Shown here in pieces: positions 2,936 to 13,966 of a stretch of DNA of 64,000 nucleotides. The DNA is from Bacteroidota bacterium (GTDB taxonomy: Bacteria; Bacteroidota; Ignavibacteria; Kryptoniales; JAKASW01). Under the pieces are notes generated by a model. That model was not told the DNA's origin. It did not search any database and was given only the letters and a program-made list of their open reading frames with translations. Each line of letters begins with the position of its first letter. Position 1 is the first letter of the stretch. The stretch covers positions 1 through 64,000 of the forward strand of contig JAKAMG010000003.1 in assembly GCA_021812985.1 (NCBI GenBank), read 5' to 3'. The position numbers and the translations under genes were made by a program.

Positions 2936-3532
2936 TTATTTTACTTCCTTGAGAGCGGCCCTGACCAGATCTTCCACTGATTTCGCTGATAAAGGGTCAA
3001 GCTTCAAAGCTTCTCGTATTGCCCTCTCGCACTGCAAGCGGGAGTAGCCGAGCGCGACAAGCGCCTCGACGGCGCCGGACCTTATCTCCTCTTTCCCCTC
3101 GAGCGCCTCGCCAGATACTGACATTTCCACACGCTGAATCTTGTCACGAAGTTCGAGCACCACACGTTCCGCTGTCTTCCTCCCGACGCCGGGCATCGCC
3201 ATGAGTGCCTGTGAGTTTGACGTGGCAATGAATCCGTAAATCTCGCCCACCCCGGCAGATGAAAGCAAACCAAGAGCTGTCTTGGGTCCGATGCCGGATA
3301 CGCTGGTAAGGAGCTTAAAGAGCTTCCGCTCGTCCTCGGTCGCGAACCCGTACAATTGCATGTCGTCTTCCCGGACAATGAGTACCGTGAAGACCCTGAC
3401 ATCTTCCCCGATTTTGCCGATGGCATCAAATGTCGATACGGGTACATTTACCTCGTATGCCATACCGTTGACGTCAACGATGATTGCCGTCGGAGTCTTG
3501 TCGGCCAGCTTTCCCCGCAGGCTGTAAATCAT
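2936..3532 (-). CDS. ruvA: Holliday junction branch migration protein RuvA
   Basis: This 198-residue protein binds four-way junctions as a tetramer and loads the RuvB motor for branch migration during recombinational repair. The N-terminus MIYSLRGKL is the typical OB-fold start. Two helix-hairpin-helix motifs follow (VSGIGPKTALGLL and MPGVGRKTAERVV), then the flexible linker and the C-terminal RuvB-binding domain (ALVALGYS). The ATG at 3532 was chosen over an in-frame upstream start because it begins at the conserved family N-terminus and overlaps the ruvC stop as ATGA, implying translational coupling. Length is normal. ruvB is not in the window. Confidence 0.97.
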   Translation of the reverse strand: MIYSLRGKLADKTPTAIIVDVNGMAYEVNVPVSTFDAIGKIGEDVRVFTVLIVREDDMQLYGFATEDERKLFKLLTSVSGIGPKTALGLLSSAGVGEIYGFIATSNSQALMAMPGVGRKTAERVVLELRDKIQRVEMSVSGEALEGKEEIRSGAVEALVALGYSRLQCERAIREALKLDPLSAKSVEDLVRAALKEVK

Positions 3533-4092
3533 TTCGCGCTCCTGGATCGCGTCTTGTGTACCACCATGTGTCCGTTTCTTTCCACGAATTCTTTCCAATT
3601 CCTGTAACCGCCGCCGCCTTTTCCGCTGTTCTGGGCGTGGCATATCGCAACCGCGCAGGCATCCGCTTCGTCTTCACGGAAATCATGCTTCTCCCCGTCA
3701 GAGAGGAGTTTTCCGACCATGTATTTCACCTGTACTTTGGATGCGTTACCGTTCCCCGTGACGGCCTGCTTGACTTTCCTGGGAGAGTACTCCGTCACAT
3801 CGACATTCCTGAGGGCCGCCGCCAGTACCGCTGCGCTTCGGGCATAGCCGAGCTTATAGGCACTCTGGGCGTTCTTTCCGTAGTAACCGGCCTCCACAGC
3901 CACGGAAGTTATCTTGTACTTGTCAAAAAGCCCGCCGACCCTGTCAAATATCCGGACAAGCTTCAAGGGCATTGATTTTATCTCAGTGAGGAAGATTGTG
4001 CCGAAATCAACCACATCGTAGCGGTTGTTTTCCGAACTGATTACGGCAAATCCCGTCTTCCTTGAACCAGGGTCAATGCCAAGTATGATCAT
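3529..4092 (-). CDS. ruvC: Crossover junction endodeoxyribonuclease RuvC
   Basis: RuvC is a dimeric, magnesium-dependent resolvase that nicks Holliday junctions symmetrically, together with RuvAB. The RNase H-fold acidic residues are visible: D7 in GIDPG, E67 in VAVEAGYYG, and D141/D144 in FREDEADACA. The family length is usually 160-190 residues and this one has 187. The extra C-terminal tail is glycine-rich then basic (GKGGGGYRNW to the end). It lies between yebC and ruvA in one minus-strand unit, the yebC-ruvC-ruvA order being common in bacteria. Confidence 0.97.
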   Translation of the reverse strand: MIILGIDPGSRKTGFAVISSENNRYDVVDFGTIFLTEIKSMPLKLVRIFDRVGGLFDKYKITSVAVEAGYYGKNAQSAYKLGYARSAAVLAAALRNVDVTEYSPRKVKQAVTGNGNASKVQVKYMVGKLLSDGEKHDFREDEADACAVAICHAQNSGKGGGGYRNWKEFVERNGHMVVHKTRSRSAK

Positions 4093-4142: not shown

Positions 4143-4892
4143 TCACTGGTTGATCTGGGCAAGGACGCTGTCGTCGATGTCAAAGTTGGCGTAGACATTC
4201 TGGACATCATCGTGTTCCTCGAGCGCCTCCATCAACTTCAGGACCTGCTCCGCCTCTTTGCCTTCGACGCGAATAGTGTTCTGAGGAAGAAGCTGCAGCG
4301 AGGAGTTGTTGACCTTAAGTCCTTTTTCCTCGACCGCCTTCTTGACGGCTTCGAAAGCCTCGGCGGAAGTCGTAATGTCGTAGTAGTCCTCTTCGGCCTT
4401 CATGTCGTCGGCTCCCGCTTCCAGGATGATGTTCAGAAGATCGTCCTCTCCGATTGCCGATTTCGGGACCTCGATGCTTCCCTTTTTCTGGAACATCCAG
4501 GCGACGGAGCCAGCCTCTGCCAGTTTGCCGTTGTTCCGGTCAAGCAGGTGACGCAGCTCGGCCACAGTCCTGTTCTTATTGTCGGTGACGAGCTCGATCA
4601 TTACCGCAACCCCACCTGGACCGTAACCTTCGTACGTGATCTCTTCGTATGTGACGCCGGGGAGTTCGCCGGTTCCGCGTTGGATGGCGCGTTTGATGTT
4701 GTCCGCCGGCATATTGTTGTCCTTCGCTGTCTGCACGGCGAGCCTGAGACGAGGATTGCCATTTACATCGCCGCCGCCGTTCTTAGCCGCAATAGTAATT
4801 TCCTTGATCAGACGGCTGAACAGTTTCCCGCGTTGCGCATCCGTTCCCGCCTTCTTGTGCTTGATCTTCGCCCATTTATTATGTCCGGACAT
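4143..4892 (-). CDS. yebC: YebC/PmpR family protein
   Basis: The 249-residue protein begins MSGHNKWAKIKHKK, the hallmark of the YebC/PmpR/TACO1 family, and carries the family's NNMPADNIKRAI and YEGYGPGGVA segments. Members have been described both as transcriptional regulators and as ribosome-associated factors that help translate proline-rich or otherwise difficult stretches, so the role here should be stated only as YebC-like. The Shine-Dalgarno AGGAGG is embedded in the last codons of recJ and only 3 bp separate the genes, implying coupled expression. The link to ruvC and ruvA is a conserved gene neighbourhood rather than proof of a repair function. Confidence 0.93.
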   Translation of the reverse strand: MSGHNKWAKIKHKKAGTDAQRGKLFSRLIKEITIAAKNGGGDVNGNPRLRLAVQTAKDNNMPADNIKRAIQRGTGELPGVTYEEITYEGYGPGGVAVMIELVTDNKNRTVAELRHLLDRNNGKLAEAGSVAWMFQKKGSIEVPKSAIGEDDLLNIILEAGADDMKAEEDYYDITTSAEAFEAVKKAVEEKGLKVNNSSLQLLPQNTIRVEGKEAEQVLKLMEALEEHDDVQNVYANFDIDDSVLAQINQ

Positions 4893-4895
4893 GTT

Positions 4896-6617
4896 TCAAC
4901 CTCCTAAGCTTTCTTTTCCGATTTTGTTTTCGGAAGCGTTTCTGAAATCCTTTAATTGCAGTTGATAATATACGTTACCCGCGTAGTGATTTTCATCTAC
5001 CGAATAAATGACATCGAGCCTTGTACCGCCTCTGACCGTGCTGTCACCATTTCTGAACTTGATCGCGTCGAACGTTACGCCGTTCGATTTCAGCTTCATC
5101 TTAAGGTGAGAATTGCCCACGATCCTTGAGTCGGAAAGGTAGACGTTTGATGTTCTGAACACCGGCTTGGCGTTGTGCGGGCCAAACGGCTCAAACATCT
5201 TGAGAGTCTTCATGAAGTCACCATCGACGTCACTTAGATCAAGATCCGAGTCGATGGAAATTACCGGTGTCTTCAACTCTTCCGTGAGGGTGCGCGAGAC
5301 AACCTCCTCGAACTTCTCTCGGAATGCCTGAAGATTCTCCGGCAGCAAGGCCATACCAGCCGCCACTTTGTGTCCTCCGAATTGCAGGAGCAAATCGGAG
5401 CACTCTCTGATGGCGGCAAATATGTCATACCCGACGACGCTTCTCGCGCTTCCGCGTACTACGCCATCTGCGGTAGCGAGCATAATCGTCGGCTTGTAGA
5501 AAGATTCCACGATCCTCGACGCGACTATCCCGATAACCCCGGGATGCCAGGAGTCCCTGTGAAGGACAAACGAGTTGCGGTCGCCGTGCGAGAGCATCTC
5601 GAGCGCCATCTCCTGGGCTTCGCTGAAAGTCTTCTCGTCAAGGATTTTTCTGTGCGCGTTCTCGCTCTCGAGTATCTGGGCGAAATCCTCAGCCAATTCC
5701 GGGCTGTCAGTGATCAGAAGTTCGACGGCCCTCTTCGCGTCACCGAGCCTCCCGACGGCGTTGATTCGCGGGGCTATATTGAAAGAGACCTGCCCCGTGG
5801 TGAGCCTGCCCACGTCAACTCTTGAACTCTCAAGGAGGGCCTTGATCCCGGCCCTCGGATGGCGTCCGATCGCCTCAAAGCCCGCCTGTACCAGTATGCG
5901 GTTTTCGCCAACAAGCGGAACGACGTCTGCCGCAGCGGCTATCGCCACGAGATCCAGGTACTCGTCCGGCAACTCGTTCTTGCCGAGCCTGATCGAAACT
6001 GCCTTCGCGAACTTGTACGCCACCCCGCAACCGGAAAGATACTTGAAAGGATAATCGCATCCAGGCTTGATGGGATCGAGCACGGCAACCGCGTCAGGAC
6101 AGTCCTCGACCTCGTGATGATCGCAGACTATCGTGTCTATTCCCTTCGATGAGGCCAGCGCAATTTCCTTGCTCGCCGCCACTCCGCAGTCGACGCTGAT
6201 GAGGAGCGTAAAACCAGATGAAGCCGCAAACTCAACGCCCGCAGCGCTAATTCCGTACCCTTCTTTGAGTCTGTCCGGGATGTAGAATTCCACGTTCGCG
6301 CCGAGCTTCCTGAAGAACATGTAAAGGAGCGCCGCGCCAGTGGTGCCGTCGACGTCGTAGTCGCCATAAATGAGTATCTTCTCGTACCGCTCCAACGCCG
6401 CCAGCGCCCTGTCGACCGCCTTGGTCATTCCATCCATCAGGAAAGGATCATGCTGGTCGTTCAGGCTCGAATAGAAAAAGGCCTTGGCCTTTTCCGGCGA
6501 GTCGAGCCCGCGCTGAGCGAGAAGCCTGGCAATTACCGGCTTCACGTTTAGAAGCCTGGAGAGTTCGGCGACCGCCGACTGATCGACCTGTTCTGATAAG
6601 CGCCAGTTATACTTCAT
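4896..6617 (-). CDS. recJ: Single-stranded-DNA-specific exonuclease RecJ
   Basis: RecJ degrades single-stranded DNA 5' to 3' in mismatch repair and RecF-type recombination. The DHH phosphoesterase motifs are present: GDYDVDG (D86, D88, D90), SVDCGV near residue 143, and CDHHE (D166-H168). The DHHA1 domain carries QFGGHKVAAG, followed by an OB-fold C-terminal region. Length is 573 residues, normal for the family. The ATG at 6617 gives the standard N-terminus (MKYNWRLSE). A longer in-frame start would extend into the RNase P RNA gene and is not credible. The gene follows rnpB on the same strand and leads into yebC-ruvC-ruvA. Confidence 0.96.
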   Translation of the reverse strand: MKYNWRLSEQVDQSAVAELSRLLNVKPVIARLLAQRGLDSPEKAKAFFYSSLNDQHDPFLMDGMTKAVDRALAALERYEKILIYGDYDVDGTTGAALLYMFFRKLGANVEFYIPDRLKEGYGISAAGVEFAASSGFTLLISVDCGVAASKEIALASSKGIDTIVCDHHEVEDCPDAVAVLDPIKPGCDYPFKYLSGCGVAYKFAKAVSIRLGKNELPDEYLDLVAIAAAADVVPLVGENRILVQAGFEAIGRHPRAGIKALLESSRVDVGRLTTGQVSFNIAPRINAVGRLGDAKRAVELLITDSPELAEDFAQILESENAHRKILDEKTFSEAQEMALEMLSHGDRNSFVLHRDSWHPGVIGIVASRIVESFYKPTIMLATADGVVRGSARSVVGYDIFAAIRECSDLLLQFGGHKVAAGMALLPENLQAFREKFEEVVSRTLTEELKTPVISIDSDLDLSDVDGDFMKTLKMFEPFGPHNAKPVFRTSNVYLSDSRIVGNSHLKMKLKSNGVTFDAIKFRNGDSTVRGGTRLDVIYSVDENHYAGNVYYQLQLKDFRNASENKIGKESLGG

Positions 6618-6648
6618 TGACGCCCATCCAGCGATAGTATAGAAATAA

Positions 6649-7050
6649 TGGAGTGAGCCGATAAGCCGAATTCTGTCTTTTCCCCGCTGACGCGAAGAAG
6701 AGGCAGCCATTTATCTGAGCGACCTACCCGGGAGTCGAGCGAGACTGGCCGCCTCGCTCCCGCACGGACATGGTCCATCCGGGATTTCTCCCTTACTTGG
6801 TCTTGCTCCGCAGGGGGTTTACCATGCATCCCGATGTCACCACCGGGAACGGTGGGCTCTTGCCCCGCCTTTTCACCCTTACCACGCCGAAAGCGTGGCG
6901 GTATATTTTCTGTGGCACTTTCCGTCGGGTCGCCCCGCCTCCGACCACTCCCGACGCGAAGTCGGAAAGGATCGGAGCCCGCTGCCATATGGAGTCCGGA
7001 CTTTCCTCCCCGCTCCCCGCAAAGGGGGACGGAGCGGCTGCCTGGCTCAC
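6649..7050 (-). ncRNA. rnpB: RNase P RNA (bacterial, probably type A)
   Basis: Reading the minus strand, the RNA begins near GTGAGCCAGGCAGCCG, contains the universal GAGGAAAGTCCGGACTCC element close to the 5' end, and ends with AGAATTCGGCTTATCGG and a final CACTC that pairs back with the 5' end. These are conserved regions CR-I and CR-V of bacterial RNase P RNA, and the roughly 400-nt length is right for the catalytic RNA that removes tRNA 5' leaders. Ends are approximate to a few bases. The 5' end overlaps the stop codon of the upstream RNase HI gene. No separate promoter was found, so it may be cut from a longer transcript or use a promoter inside that gene. Confidence 0.93.
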
Positions 7051-7457
7051 TCCTGTACAACAATTTCTGCTCCTTTCTTGGCCAGCCTGTCGGCTTCCCT
7101 GTTCAACTCGCGCGGCACGTGCTTAATGGCAAATTTGAAGTGCGCTTTGGAGAGTTTTTCCTTGACCTGCATGGCGAGCGCCTTCATATCGCCATTCTTT
7201 ATCCTGTAAACGCCGTTCATCTGCGAAACAACCAGCTGACTGTCTGACCTCACTTCAAGTTCGTCACAGCCAAGCTTTTCCGCAAGCTCTATACTCCTAA
7301 TCAGCGCCATGTACTCGGCACGGTTGTTAGTCCCATGCCCGAGGTGCTCGGAATGTTCCGCTAATACTTTTCCTTCGCCATCCCTGATGTATACTCCAAG
7401 TCCGCTTGAGCCGGGATTACCGAACGAGGCACCGTCAATATTCGCGATTAATTTCAT
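7047..7457 (-). CDS. rnhA: Ribonuclease HI family protein
   Basis: This 136-residue protein has the RNase H fold that cleaves RNA in RNA-DNA hybrids. The catalytic carboxylates are recognisable: D9 in NIDGAS, the glutamate in NNRAEYMAL, and the aspartate in VRSDSQLV, with a final acidic position in LNREADRLAKKG. It belongs to the short branch without a hybrid-binding domain. The start at 7457 overlaps the preceding stop as ATGA and begins MKLIANIDG. The stop (7047-7049) falls within the first bases of rnpB, so the end of the mRNA and the start of RNase P RNA share sequence. Confidence 0.92.
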   Translation of the reverse strand: MKLIANIDGASFGNPGSSGLGVYIRDGEGKVLAEHSEHLGHGTNNRAEYMALIRSIELAEKLGCDELEVRSDSQLVVSQMNGVYRIKNGDMKALAMQVKEKLSKAHFKFAIKHVPRELNREADRLAKKGAEIVVQE

Positions 7458-8194
7458 ACATCGCGAGCCGCTTCCTCGACAATCTCGTTCGGCACAAGTA
7501 TCCTGCCGCAATGGTCGCATGTGAAGATCTTTTCCATCTGACGTAGGTCCATGAGCCTCTGGGGAGGAAGAACGTTGTAGCAGCCGCCGCAGGCGTTACG
7601 CCGGACGACGGGAACGACCGCCTTCCCCTTTGTGGCCTTGCGAATCATCTCGTACCTCGCAAGAGTCTGCTTGTCGACTTTCTGCGCATGCTTCTCTCGC
7701 TCTTTCAGGTACCTCTTCTCCTCGTCGTGGGTCAACGAGACCAGTTCGTCCAGCTCCACCTTCTTCGAGGAATATACACCTTCCTCCTCTGTAAAGTCTG
7801 AACGCAGCTTGTCGACTTCCTTCGAAGAAACGACCTCCTTCGACTGGATATTTTCCAGTTCCTTGTGGAGCTCCTGAAGCTTCTCCTTGGAGTTATCGAT
7901 CTGCTTGCTGAGGGCGTCGTATTCCCGGTTGGTCTTGACCTTGATTCGCATCTCCGTGTACTTATCAATCCTTTTTCTTACTTCATCAAGGTCTTTATCG
8001 ATTTCTTTCTTTCGTACCACGGCCTTCTTCAAATACTCGTCGTTCTCCTTGATCTGCGTCTTCAGCGTGGCAATTTTGTTTTCAAGTTCTTCTACTTCTG
8101 CCGGCAGATCTCCGCGTTCCTCAAGCAAACCGTCGAGCTTGAGGTCAACCTGCTGGAGCTGGTAAAGGTTTTTAAGCTTATCCTTCACAACCAC
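7454..8194 (-). CDS. Coiled-coil protein with C-terminal C4 zinc ribbon (COG1579 type)
   Basis: The 246-residue protein has a long, charged coiled coil (about residues 5-185, rich in K/E with leucine heptads) followed by a zinc-ribbon: CGGCYN, then about 20 residues, then CDHCGR. This is the arrangement of the COG1579 family, often annotated as a putative nucleic-acid-binding zinc-ribbon protein and commonly found beside nif3-like genes. Exact function is unknown. The GTG at 8194 was chosen because AGGAG lies 6-7 bases upstream; another GTG two codons later is possible. It is coupled to RNase HI by a 4-bp overlap and lies 18 bp after the nif3-like gene. Confidence 0.88.
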   Translation of the reverse strand: MVVKDKLKNLYQLQQVDLKLDGLLEERGDLPAEVEELENKIATLKTQIKENDEYLKKAVVRKKEIDKDLDEVRKRIDKYTEMRIKVKTNREYDALSKQIDNSKEKLQELHKELENIQSKEVVSSKEVDKLRSDFTEEEGVYSSKKVELDELVSLTHDEEKRYLKEREKHAQKVDKQTLARYEMIRKATKGKAVVPVVRRNACGGCYNVLPPQRLMDLRQMEKIFTCDHCGRILVPNEIVEEAARDV

Positions 8195-9327: not shown

Positions 9328-9362
9328 AAAAAAAAAGTGTTCCAATCACCTCTGGAACACTT
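9328..9362 (-). terminator. Intrinsic terminator/attenuator in the nif3 leader
   Basis: On the minus strand AAGTGTTCCA (9362-9353) and TGGAACACTT (9344-9335) form a perfect 10-bp stem around an 8-base loop, with nine consecutive T residues at 9336-9328. It is a textbook intrinsic terminator. Its first base is the last base of the stop codon of the small ORF at 9362-9436, and the nif3-like ATG lies only about 15 bases after the T-run, too close for an independent promoter between them. Confidence 0.9.
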
Positions 9363-9436
9363 CACTTATTCTTACCGAACCTTGAACTTCTTGTCAAAAA
9401 CTTCCTGGATCGAATCTCTTCTTGTATGCTTTTCAT
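9362..9436 (-). CDS. Putative 24-residue leader peptide or small protein
   Basis: A 24-codon ORF starts at ATG 9436, begins MKSIQEEIRS and ends RFGKNK, and is strongly basic (four Arg, four Lys). It is too short for usual gene calling, but it lies exactly between a good promoter (9457-9485) and an intrinsic terminator (9328-9362), and its TGA overlaps the first base of the terminator stem. No Shine-Dalgarno is present; the start is preceded by AGAAAA. I do not recognise the peptide. The layout fits a leader peptide whose translation could control readthrough into the nif3 cluster, or a free-standing small protein or RNA gene. Confidence 0.5.
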   Translation of the reverse strand: MKSIQEEIRSRKFLTRSSRFGKNK

Positions 9437-9456
9437 TTTTCTAAATTTCGTTAAAA

Positions 9457-9485
9457 AATATACCGAAGGCCCCGAATAAATGCAA
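9457..9485 (-). promoter_or_regulatory. Sigma70-like promoter for the small ORF and nif3 cluster
   Basis: On the minus strand TTGCAT is separated by exactly 17 bp from TATATT. Predicted initiation near 9450 leaves a leader of roughly 14 bases before the small ORF. It is the only strong promoter seen upstream of the nif3-to-ruvA gene run. Confidence 0.6.
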
Positions 9486-11011: not shown

Positions 11012-12298
11012 CTATTTCAGCCTGTCGGAGAAGAAGAACTTTTCCCCTCGAATGATTCCCACCGCACTCCCTTTGAATCTCATTCCTTTGAATCCCGTGT
11101 TTTTGCTCTTCGACTTGAACTTCTCCGGCTCAACAACCCATTCATAGTCCGGGTCAATTATAGTCAGATCCGCCTTCGCTCCGAGGTTGAACTCCGGCAC
11201 CGCGAGCCCGAGAATCCTCCTGGGGTTCAGCGAGAGAAGCCTGACGATTGCCTGTATGTCGAGGACTTCCTTATGATACAATTCGGTCATGACTGCGCCA
11301 ACGGTAGTCTCGAGGCCTATCATGCCGAAAGGAGCGGCGTCAAATTCCACCTCTTTCTCGTGAAGCGCGTGCGGCGCGTGATCGCTCGCTATCGCATCAA
11401 TTATACCGTTCTTCAATCCCTCGACGAGAGCTTCCCTGTCCTCCTTCGTCCTGAGCGGTGGATTGACCTTATAGTCGGAATCGTAATTGCCCAAAAGGTT
11501 ATCATCAAGGAAAAGATGATGGGGGGTCACATCGCAGGTGATTGGCAGCTTTTCTTCTTTTGCCCTCTTCACGAGGTTCACCGATTCAGCAGTGGAGATA
11601 TGCGTCGCGTGGTACTTGCCGCCGAACGCCTTCAGCATCATTATGTCACGGCTAAGTATCAGCTCCTCTGCAAGACGATGCTGTGTCTTAAGACCGTAGC
11701 GGATCGTCTCGGCGCTTTCGTTCGCGCTTCCAGACTTCGTTAGCGAGTGATCTTCACAGTGCTGGATGATCGGCCTCCCCAGCATAGAGGAATACTGAAG
11801 CGCGAGCCGCATGACGTGAGAGTCAGACACAGCGGAACCGTCATCGCTGAAGGCAACCGCTCCGGCCTCGGACAGGTCCTTCATCTCAGACAAGCGTTCC
11901 CCTTTTCTCCCTTCCGTTACGGCTGCAATCTGGTATACGTCTACCAGTCCCGACTGCTTCGCCCGGTCTATCACATACTTCACAACATCTGCTGAATCGA
12001 CGACGGGATCCGTGTTGGGCATCGCAGCGATTCCGGTGAAGCCACCGTTTGCCGCGGCTGCAATACCGGAGGCAATGTCTTCCTTGTACTCCTGCCCTGG
12101 CTCCCGCAGATGCGTGTGCATGTCAAACAATCCCGGCACGACGAGCTTCCCGCGAAGGTTGATTTCATAATTCACCGGGTTGCCGCCGAGCGGCGAACTG
12201 ATCTCCTGAATGGCCCCGTCGACTATCATTAAGTCGAAGAGCCCGTCGTATTTTCCGGATGGATCAACGACCCTGGCATTTCTCAAATAGATTTTCAT
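11012..12298 (-). CDS. pyrC: Dihydroorotase
   Basis: Dihydroorotase closes carbamoyl-aspartate to dihydroorotate in de novo pyrimidine synthesis. The 428-residue amidohydrolase shows the zinc-binding start motif [10 protein letters not shown] near residue 60, AMPNTDP, a conserved QHCEDH, and the late ASDHAPH motif. This is the longer class I type. It overlaps pyrB by 4 bp (ATGA) and forms a pyrR-pyrB-pyrC unit. All catalytic motifs appear intact. Confidence 0.95.
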
Positions 12299-13218
12299 GA
12301 AGGCTTCGCTCCTGTCAGATATAATACCGCCATCCTCACAGCGACTCCGTTGGTCACCTGATCGAGTATGACGGATGTTTCCCCGTCCGCGATATCGGCG
12401 TCCAGCTCCACGCCGCGGTTGATTGGGCCGGGATGCATTATCACTATGGACTTGCTAGACTTTTCAAGGCGTTCCCGGTTGATTCCCCAGTAAAGGCGAT
12501 ACTCCCTTATCGTCGGAAAATCTCCTCCCGCCTCCCGCTCCAGCTGGATCCTCAGGACGTTCAGGACGTCCGCCCACTGGATCGCGTCATCGATGTTAAC
12601 GAATACTTTCACGCCGAACTGTTCGAGGTAGTCCGGGATGAGAGTCTTCGGACCGCAGACCGCGACATTTGCCCCGAGCTTGGTGAGTCCGAAGATATTT
12701 GAACGCGCGACCCTGCTGTGTGCTATATCTCCGACGATGCAGACGTTGAGCCCCTTCAGTTCGCCGAGCTTCTCCCTCATCGTAAACATATCCAGGAGCC
12801 CTTGCGTGGGGTGTTCATTTATTCCGTCCCCCGCGTTTATCACCGGCGACTTAAGGAGCCTCGAAAGAAAGTGAGGGGCGCCGGTGGATGAGTGCCTTAT
12901 TACAACGATGTCCGTCTTCATCGCTTCAATGTTTCTTGCCGTGTCCTTGAGAGTCTCTCCCTTGGACACGCTGCTCCCGCTGGCGGCAAAGTTTACGACG
13001 TCCGCGCTAAGCCGTCGCTCTGCGAGCTCAAATGATATCCGCGTGCGTGTCGAGCTCTCGAAGAACAGGTTTACCACCGTTGTTCCCTGAAGTGTCGGCA
13101 CCTTCTTGATCGGCCGCTCAAGAACTTCCCTGAAACTCCGGGCCGTGTCGAGGATTTCGACTATGCCATCAGGCTCCATGTCACGAAGCCCGAGCAGATT
13201 CCTGATTCCCTGTGCCAT
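12295..13218 (-). CDS. pyrB: Aspartate carbamoyltransferase catalytic chain
   Basis: PyrB condenses carbamoyl phosphate with aspartate, the committed step of pyrimidine synthesis. At 307 residues it has the expected length. The carbamoyl-phosphate loop [12 protein letters not shown] is intact, with [12 protein letters not shown] following and [11 protein letters not shown] for aspartate-domain binding. No pyrI regulatory chain is adjacent, so this is the unregulated class controlled at the transcript level by the neighbouring pyrR. It lies 45 bp after pyrR and overlaps pyrC. Confidence 0.96.
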
Positions 13219-13263
13219 CAGTCTGTCGTCCTTTCTAAATTCCTTTAGGCGAAACTTTAAATT

Positions 13264-13815
13264 TCAATTCGGGTTGCCGTCTTCTTCGACGAGGAGTATC
13301 TCATCTGTCCCGTCAACTTCCGTGAGATGCACAACTACCGACTCTTGGATTGCCGTCGGCTGGTTCTTTCCGACATAATCTGCGCTTATTGGGAGTTCCC
13401 TGTGTCCCCGATCCACCATAACCGCGAGCTGAATCGTCGTCGGGCGGCCGATGTCTATGAGCGCGTCCATCGCCGACCGGATCGTCCTGCCGGTGAAGAG
13501 CACATCATCGACCAGTATCACGTGCCTGTCGGTTATATCAAACGGCACCTCAGTGCGCTTCAGCTCAGGCAGCTTCAACTTTTGCCTGACGTCATCCCGA
13601 TATAGAGTGATGTCAAGCGTACCGAGCGGTACTTTAATCTTTTCGATCTCTGATATTTTGTCGGCTATCCTCTTCGCCAGAAAGTCTCCGCGTGTCCGGA
13701 TTCCAATGACGCACAGCTTTTCTCCCCCTTTGTTGTGCTCGATAATCTCATGCGCCAGTCGTGTTATCGACCTCGCCATCTGCTGCGCGTCGGCGATTTT
13801 CGTCTTTACTCTCAT
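13264..13815 (-). CDS. pyrR: PyrR regulator / uracil phosphoribosyltransferase
   Basis: The 183-residue protein is a PRPP-binding phosphoribosyltransferase-fold protein. The PRPP loop VILVDDVLFTGRTIRSAMDA and the early segment IGIRTRGDFLAKRI are characteristic of PyrR, which binds pyr mRNA and promotes attenuation when UMP is high. ATG 13815 is preferred because AAGGAG lies 5 bases upstream; a GTG two codons earlier would overlap that ribosome site. As first gene of pyrR-pyrB-pyrC, it probably regulates its own operon through the leader at 13816-14182. Confidence 0.93.
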   Translation of the reverse strand: MRVKTKIADAQQMARSITRLAHEIIEHNKGGEKLCVIGIRTRGDFLAKRIADKISEIEKIKVPLGTLDITLYRDDVRQKLKLPELKRTEVPFDITDRHVILVDDVLFTGRTIRSAMDALIDIGRPTTIQLAVMVDRGHRELPISADYVGKNQPTAIQESVVVHLTEVDGTDEILLVEEDGNPN

Positions 13816-13966
13816 ATCCACTCCTTGTTAAGTCTTACACGTTCCGTCCTATCGGCGTCCCCCGCCGGGTCTCCTGGCCGTCGCCGGGGACAGGAAGGGC
13901 GTCACCTCGTGTTCCATTATGCAACGCAGTCACGCGTCGCCGGTACACGGGCCTGATAGCTTCACT

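Follow-up and report, generated by a model that had tools for sequence, protein, structure and literature searches.

A conserved short open reading frame abutting an intrinsic terminator is a candidate translation-dependent attenuator ahead of nif3 operons

In a genome that clusters with genomes recorded as Candidatus Kryptoniota or "Bacteroidetes bacterium," the nif3 gene is preceded by a compact leader in which a promoter, a short basic open reading frame (ORF), and an intrinsic terminator follow one another so closely that the stop codon of the ORF runs into the terminator stem. This layout is real, is conserved among relatives, and occurs well above chance. With a probability of roughly 65%, we propose that the leader is a translation-dependent transcription attenuator that would operate by direct ribosome occlusion of the terminator, a reading that draws on comparative sequence data and on analogy to Escherichia coli systems. 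Within the window, meaning the entire 64,000-nucleotide stretch of DNA that was analyzed, the leader and the operon that follows it comprise the following features.

9457 to 9485, minus strand: promoter, read directly, with TTGCAT (9485-9480), a 17-bp spacer, and TATATT (9462-9457)
9328 to 9450, minus strand: predicted terminated leader RNA of about 122 nt, its transcription start deduced from the promoter position and its end from the T-run
9362 to 9436, minus strand: leader ORF of 24 codons, from ATG (9436) to TGA (9362), with the product MKSIQEEIRSRKFLTRSSRFGKNK
9328 to 9362, minus strand: intrinsic terminator, with AAGTGTTCCAG, a 6-nt loop, and TTGGAACACTT followed by nine T residues
8213 to 9313, minus strand: nif3 (DUF34/NIF3), first gene of the operon (Pfam PF01784, E = 2.9e-57)
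7454 to 8194, minus strand: gene for a C4 zinc-ribbon/coiled-coil protein (Zn_ribbon_9, Pfam PF02591; COG1579-like)
7047 to 7457, minus strand: RNase HI gene, start taken at an internal ATG (Pfam RVT_3/RNase_H)
6646 to 7053, minus strand: rnpB, class A RNase P RNA (Rfam RF00010, 246 bits)
4896 to 6617, minus strand: recJ, start taken at an internal ATG (Pfam DHH/DHHA1/RecJ_OB)
4143 to 4892, minus strand: yebC/TACO1 (Pfam PF01709)
2936 to 4092, minus strand: ruvC and ruvA (Pfam RuvC, RuvA_N, RuvA_C)

The original prediction had described TTGCAT-17-TATATT, a 24-codon basic ORF, a 10-bp stem, and nine T residues, and direct reading finds all of these to be correct to the base. The ORF product carries a net charge of +6, and the hairpin (9362-9335) forms 10 Watson–Crick pairs plus an 11th G-U pair around its 6-nt loop. 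The A of the TGA stop codon, at 9362, is indeed also the first base of the stem, and two of the nine T residues (9336-9328) pair with the AA of the stem. The nif3 start had been placed about 15 bases beyond the T-run; its ATG (9313, or 9316) lies 11-14 nt past the last T. It had further been argued that there is no room for another promoter, which holds for these 11-14 nt but not for the ORF itself, wherein a consensus-like TTGACA-18-AAGAAT is present. We rejected this internal promoter because the match occurs in the window only and is not conserved in relatives.

The minus-strand promoter at 9457-9485 is also compatible with the Bacteroidota-like pattern TTG-N20-TAnnTTTn. Members of the genus keep TATATTTT and the TTGC(A/T)-TTT part of the promoter, and similarly spaced, TA-rich -10-like hexamers are present in most of the class. 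The 64-kb window yielded just two strong intrinsic terminators, and that of the leader is the sole promoter-proximal one, lying between a promoter and a gene start. Its stem sequence is single-copy in the 3.5-Mb genome.

Searches of the leader against Rfam at gathering and relaxed thresholds yielded no credible family, with weak matches at chance level, and no covariance model for a riboswitch, T-box, or ribosomal protein leader matched at its gathering score. These results bear on the possibility that the transcript is a small regulatory RNA of about 120 nt that acts in trans, with an ORF that is either incidental or part of a dual-function RNA. The predicted transcript is short, defined, and terminated, and it carries a conserved hairpin, as might be expected of such an RNA. 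However, the lack of an Rfam family at the gathering threshold, the retention of the ORF frame without indels, and the attachment of the terminator to one operon across the class (both described below) render this explanation highly improbable.

All 12 other genomes of the genus carry the same promoter, a 21–24-codon ORF, the hairpin, and T9 ahead of nif3, at Nif3 identities of 52-67%. In 13 of 13 genomes the ORF begins with ATG, and its stop codon either shares the first stem base or sits a few nucleotides away, with stop-to-stem gaps of -2 to +8. The ORF spans 24 codons in 11 of the 13 and 21 codons in two species, where an earlier TAG removes three residues, a loss that is tolerated, and places the stop codon 7-8 nt before the stem. 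A 12-sequence alignment shows an ORF free of indels; length variation falls in the 5′ UTR, the stop-stem junction, the loop, and the spacer before nif3. Hence the ORF, its stop position, and the hairpin, on whose conservation in relatives the original prediction depended, are all kept in the genus.

Constraint on the encoded peptide is modest. The genus ORFs give a pN/pS of 0.64 (bootstrap 0.43-0.91), and values as low were obtained in 81 of 1,000 codon-column shuffles, which makes coding constraint suggestive only; we do not claim strong protein-level selection. The amino acids of an RKFL core are nearly fixed in the genus with their third positions free, and this suggests some constraint at the peptide level. 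The genus ORFs contain no run of codons for one end-product amino acid. As a separate observation on codon usage, Arg is encoded by AGA or AGG in 29 of 34 cases and Leu by TTA in 11 of 31, and TTA accounts for 4% of Leu codons in the genes of the window. Rare-codon stalling was considered but not favored: AGA/AGG and TTA are over-used relative to window genes, yet the A-richness of the leaders may explain this.

Conservation beyond the genus was assessed in a class sample of 111 genomes with a nif3 locus. A strong terminator is located within 150 nt upstream of nif3 in 92 of these genomes, or in 98 if shorter stems are allowed; it is entirely absent from family f11, in which another coding sequence precedes nif3. 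Qualifying ORFs, defined by an ATG start, at least 15 codons, and a stop codon -4 to +15 nt from the stem, are present in 74 of the 98 terminator-bearing leaders. Their median length is 24 codons, and 73 of the 74 products are net positive. Reverse-complemented leaders, used as a control, contain such an ORF in 7 of 98 cases. Outside the genus, 61 of 85 leaders carry a qualifying ORF versus 7.4 expected from dinucleotide shuffles, and stop codons at +16 to +35 nt from the stem are depleted (1 versus 6.7 expected). The class genomes are kin, so these sample counts overstate independence; a per-family test, which corrects for this in part, finds a qualifying ORF in 9.4 of 13 families versus 1.3 expected when one genome is taken from each. 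The system may have decayed, or other start codons may be in use, in the 24 of 98 leaders that have a terminator and no qualifying ATG ORF.

In most families, it is the arrangement that is kept far above the level of shuffled sequences, and not the peptide. Peptides can be matched inside families but are unalignable by eye between families, and the type of stop codon varies among leaders. Because the peptides differ while their position is kept, and given the pN/pS value noted above, the position of translation appears to be selected more than its product.

The main rival explanation is that the ORF is a stand-alone small gene for a microprotein of about 24 residues. The terminator would merely end this gene, and nif3 would be expressed through leaky, translation-independent readthrough as transcription outruns ribosomes. 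Conservation of the start codon and frame is in keeping with such a gene, as is the retention of the RKFL core despite third-position changes. Moreover, the motif [KR][KR][FYL][LI] is present in 15 of 61 peptides of other families versus 3.1 expected, an excess that is inflated by kinship. However, the lack of alignable peptides between families, the absence of any matching NCBIfam or Pfam model for the leader peptides, the modest pN/pS, and the tolerated loss of three residues all weigh against a gene maintained for its product.

The distance between the stop codon and the stem also bears on this rival. In 722 kb sampled from the same class as a control, comprising 640 genes, we found 31 ordinary genes with a terminator after them; the median gap is 21 nt and none overlaps the stem. 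Three distant ordinary genes were left out of the leader comparison and 28 were kept. Leader gaps are shorter than ordinary ones (Mann–Whitney p = 5e-8; family medians, p = 1e-4), although the 74 leader gaps were preselected in the -4 to +15 range and the unselected contrast is that of 61 stops inside this range versus 1 at +16 to +35. The stop codon overlaps the stem in 24 of 74 leaders versus 0 of 28 ordinary genes. Gaps of 15 nt or less also occur in 12 of the 28 ordinary genes, as the small-gene explanation would allow, so that leaders and ordinary genes differ in how their gaps are distributed and not in kind; a short gap is no proof by itself. Judged from these comparisons, the stop-to-stem distance is under selection. 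The shorter gaps argue against a stand-alone gene, as does the position of the ORF ahead of nif3 or the zinc-ribbon gene, kept in almost every family although nothing would oblige a free-standing gene to remain there. We consider this explanation unlikely. The phyla described as having "runaway transcription" do not include Bacteroidota (PMC13323073).

The genes claimed to lie downstream, for a zinc-ribbon protein, RNase HI, RNase P RNA, RecJ, and RuvCA, were confirmed by Pfam and Rfam searches. Most families have the order nif3-zn-(rnh)-rnpB-recJ-yebC-ruvC-ruvA, where zn is the zinc-ribbon gene. Although the named genes do follow the leader, the name nif3/zinc-ribbon operon fits the regulated unit better. 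In the representatives examined from three families (f10, f12, f26), the leader is kept with only nif3-zn downstream, and rnpB-recJ-ruvCA is absent there. Family f2 has lost nif3 (protein and Pfam searches both came up empty); there, the zinc-ribbon gene is immediately preceded by a promoter-like site, a leader, and a terminator, with no evident ORF. What stays constant downstream is thus the zinc-ribbon gene, usually together with nif3. That COG1579 is the partner found most often with DUF34/NIF3 was already known (PMC8469502).

Several other arrangements were observed around these loci. In the 150 nt before the zinc-ribbon gene of family f2 (L134-L139), a conserved purine-rich element (about TTTGGAGGYTGAGSCGGAAAA) replaces the ATG ORF. 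In L131, from family f3, a tRNA gene (Rfam match in the overlapping L212) and then a 21-codon ORF lie directly before nif3; the TAA of this ORF overlaps the terminator stem, which is the same logic in a distant family. In Desulfuromonadales-like genomes (L046, L054, L055, L060, L061, L063, L065, L067, L072, L074, L075, L086, L094), a tRNA-like gene whose anticodon sequence is CAT precedes nif3, as does a conserved terminator, usually AAGAGTGCACCGG..CCGGTGCACTCTT. These terminators resemble the stems of the class, and short ORFs end at the stem in L074 (MSRKLILIYPKF) and L067. The Desulfuromonadales-like arrangement may be a related or a convergent leader. On the minus strand of the window itself, a pyrC-pyrB-pyrR-like cluster (11012-13821) is present just past SDR and acyltransferase-like genes oriented away from nif3, and we found no link between this cluster and the leader.

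Folding of the 12 genus sequences with RNAalifold, whose reach does not extend to protein-assisted folds, gave the terminator hairpin as the sole predicted structure, with no alternative antiterminator fold. The genus stem AAGTGTTCC/GGAACACTT is almost invariant and carries no compensatory changes. Furthermore, A[AG]TG[CT][ACT]C is present in the stem of 73 of 92 leaders versus 0 of 29 ordinary terminators from the same genomes. The stem sequence, both at 9335-9362 in the window and in class leaders, is kept far beyond the needs of pairing, and this conservation exceeds what occlusion explains, given that any stem would serve. It could stem from a hairpin-binding factor or from slow divergence of an inherited stem.

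One possibility is that a trans-acting factor, for example the zinc-ribbon protein of the operon, recognizes the hairpin and that the ORF is secondary. The near-invariant genus stem and the class-wide motif would be consistent with such recognition, as would the fact that loss of nif3 has not separated the terminator from the zinc-ribbon gene. However, an inherited stem that drifts slowly would look similar at the class level, and a factor of this kind leaves the conserved stop position unexplained; we regard it as very unlikely. A more inclusive proposal would have a class-wide (Kryptoniota/Ignavibacteria-like) attenuator sense translation capacity by occlusion and set expression of an RNase P RNA/YebC/DNA-repair operon, with its hairpin also bound by a trans-acting factor, possibly the zinc-ribbon protein. 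Taken as a whole, this is quite doubtful.

We favor attenuation by ribosome occlusion. RNA polymerase would start near 9450 and transcribe the leader with its small ORF, and then the terminator. A ribosome that promptly translates the ORF and reaches or occupies the stop codon as the hairpin emerges would cover the base of the 5′ arm and keep the hairpin from closing, so that transcription would read through into nif3-zn-rnh-rnpB-recJ-yebC-ruvCA. If translation is absent or late, the hairpin would form and a leader of about 120 nt would be released. Translation would thereby promote operon expression, and the input would presumably be general translation capacity, not one amino acid; the variation in stop codon type and peptide makes general translation status the most economical guess.

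When a stop codon in E. coli was shifted from 28 to 5 nt ahead of an intrinsic terminator, termination fell from about 90% to under 10%, and uncoupling translation abolished this effect of stop proximity (PMC4824070). Since the leader gaps fall within the range that represses termination in E. coli, we infer that direct occlusion is the favored mechanism. The translation-dependent readthrough put forward in the original prediction is supported by this precedent, by the short gaps, and by conservation of the ORF, stop position, and hairpin in the genus and of their arrangement in most families of the class, with occlusion itself a probable reading here. The stop codon is in the stem or within about 15 nt of it in 13 of 13 genus members and in 61 of 85 leaders from other families, the distribution of gaps differs from that of ordinary genes, and RNAalifold predicts no antiterminator fold. 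Occlusion is also supported by the 11-14 nt spacing between T-run and nif3 in the window and by retention of the arrangement with differing downstream genes. The sister family f2, which keeps the terminator without a clear ORF, counts against it, as do the quarter or so of terminator-bearing class leaders in which no ORF qualifies, the excess conservation of the stem, and the hint of peptide-level constraint in the RKFL core.

A leader gene might alternatively boost nif3 translation through ribosome reinitiation. Leader genes near structural genes are common, but the reported ones to which reinitiation is ascribed peak about 10-14 nt from the next start (PMC4833913). In the nif3 leader, the ORF and the nif3 start are separated by about 48 nt and a terminator hairpin, and we rejected reinitiation on this distance as scarcely credible.

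The best-known cases of leader-peptide attenuation come from Proteobacteria, Actinobacteria, and Firmicutes. In the open-access literature, where absence is no proof, we found no description of a nif3 leader attenuator and no case of leader-peptide attenuation in this lineage, and a search for literature on a nif3/rnpB operon found none. If our reading is true, a leader that many families conserve in position, but not in sequence, would provide a natural case of a ribosome at a stop codon blocking a terminator, an effect for which measurements have so far come mainly from engineered E. coli constructs and from pyrBI. It would also imply transcription-translation coupling at least at the nif3 locus, which bears on the spread of coupling in the tree. 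In addition, it would provide a regulatory input for the widespread, poorly understood nif3/COG1579 pair and, in many families, for RNase P RNA.

The leader shares features with several known systems. Like the conserved premature terminators surveyed by Naville and Gautheret, it joins fast-evolving leader sequence to a terminator kept in synteny before orthologous genes; the main text of that survey does not mention nif3, Bacteroidetes, or RNase P (PMC2965389). As in antibiotic-sensing uORF attenuators of the vmlR, hflXr, and topAI types, the translation state of an upstream ORF would set premature termination. Those systems typically rely on stalling that switches between terminator and antiterminator folds, or on Rho (PMC12218461), and the genes after the nif3 leader are not resistance genes. 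Attenuators of the trp/his type likewise place a leader peptide and a terminator ahead of an operon, and in amino-acid leader attenuators the terminator lies >20 nt from the leader stop codon (PMC4824070). However, the trp/his type uses competing hairpins, whereas in the nif3 leader the gap is about -2 to +12 and folding revealed no competing hairpin; the leader has neither a run of end-product codons nor a terminator >20 nt from the stop codon.

The E. coli pyrBI leader, to which rph-pyrE is a similar case, has a short ORF at an intrinsic terminator and no alternative antiterminator, and close translation prevents formation of the hairpin. Attenuation at pyrBI has been discussed in terms of a ribosome that blocks the terminator (PMC4824070). 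In contrast to pyrBI, the leader described here precedes a nif3 operon and not pyrimidine genes, has no evident UTP-sensing pause run, and belongs to a different phylum. The nif3 leader is thus not the pyrBI system but, without any claim of peptide or RNA homology, would work in the manner of pyrBI-type attenuation.
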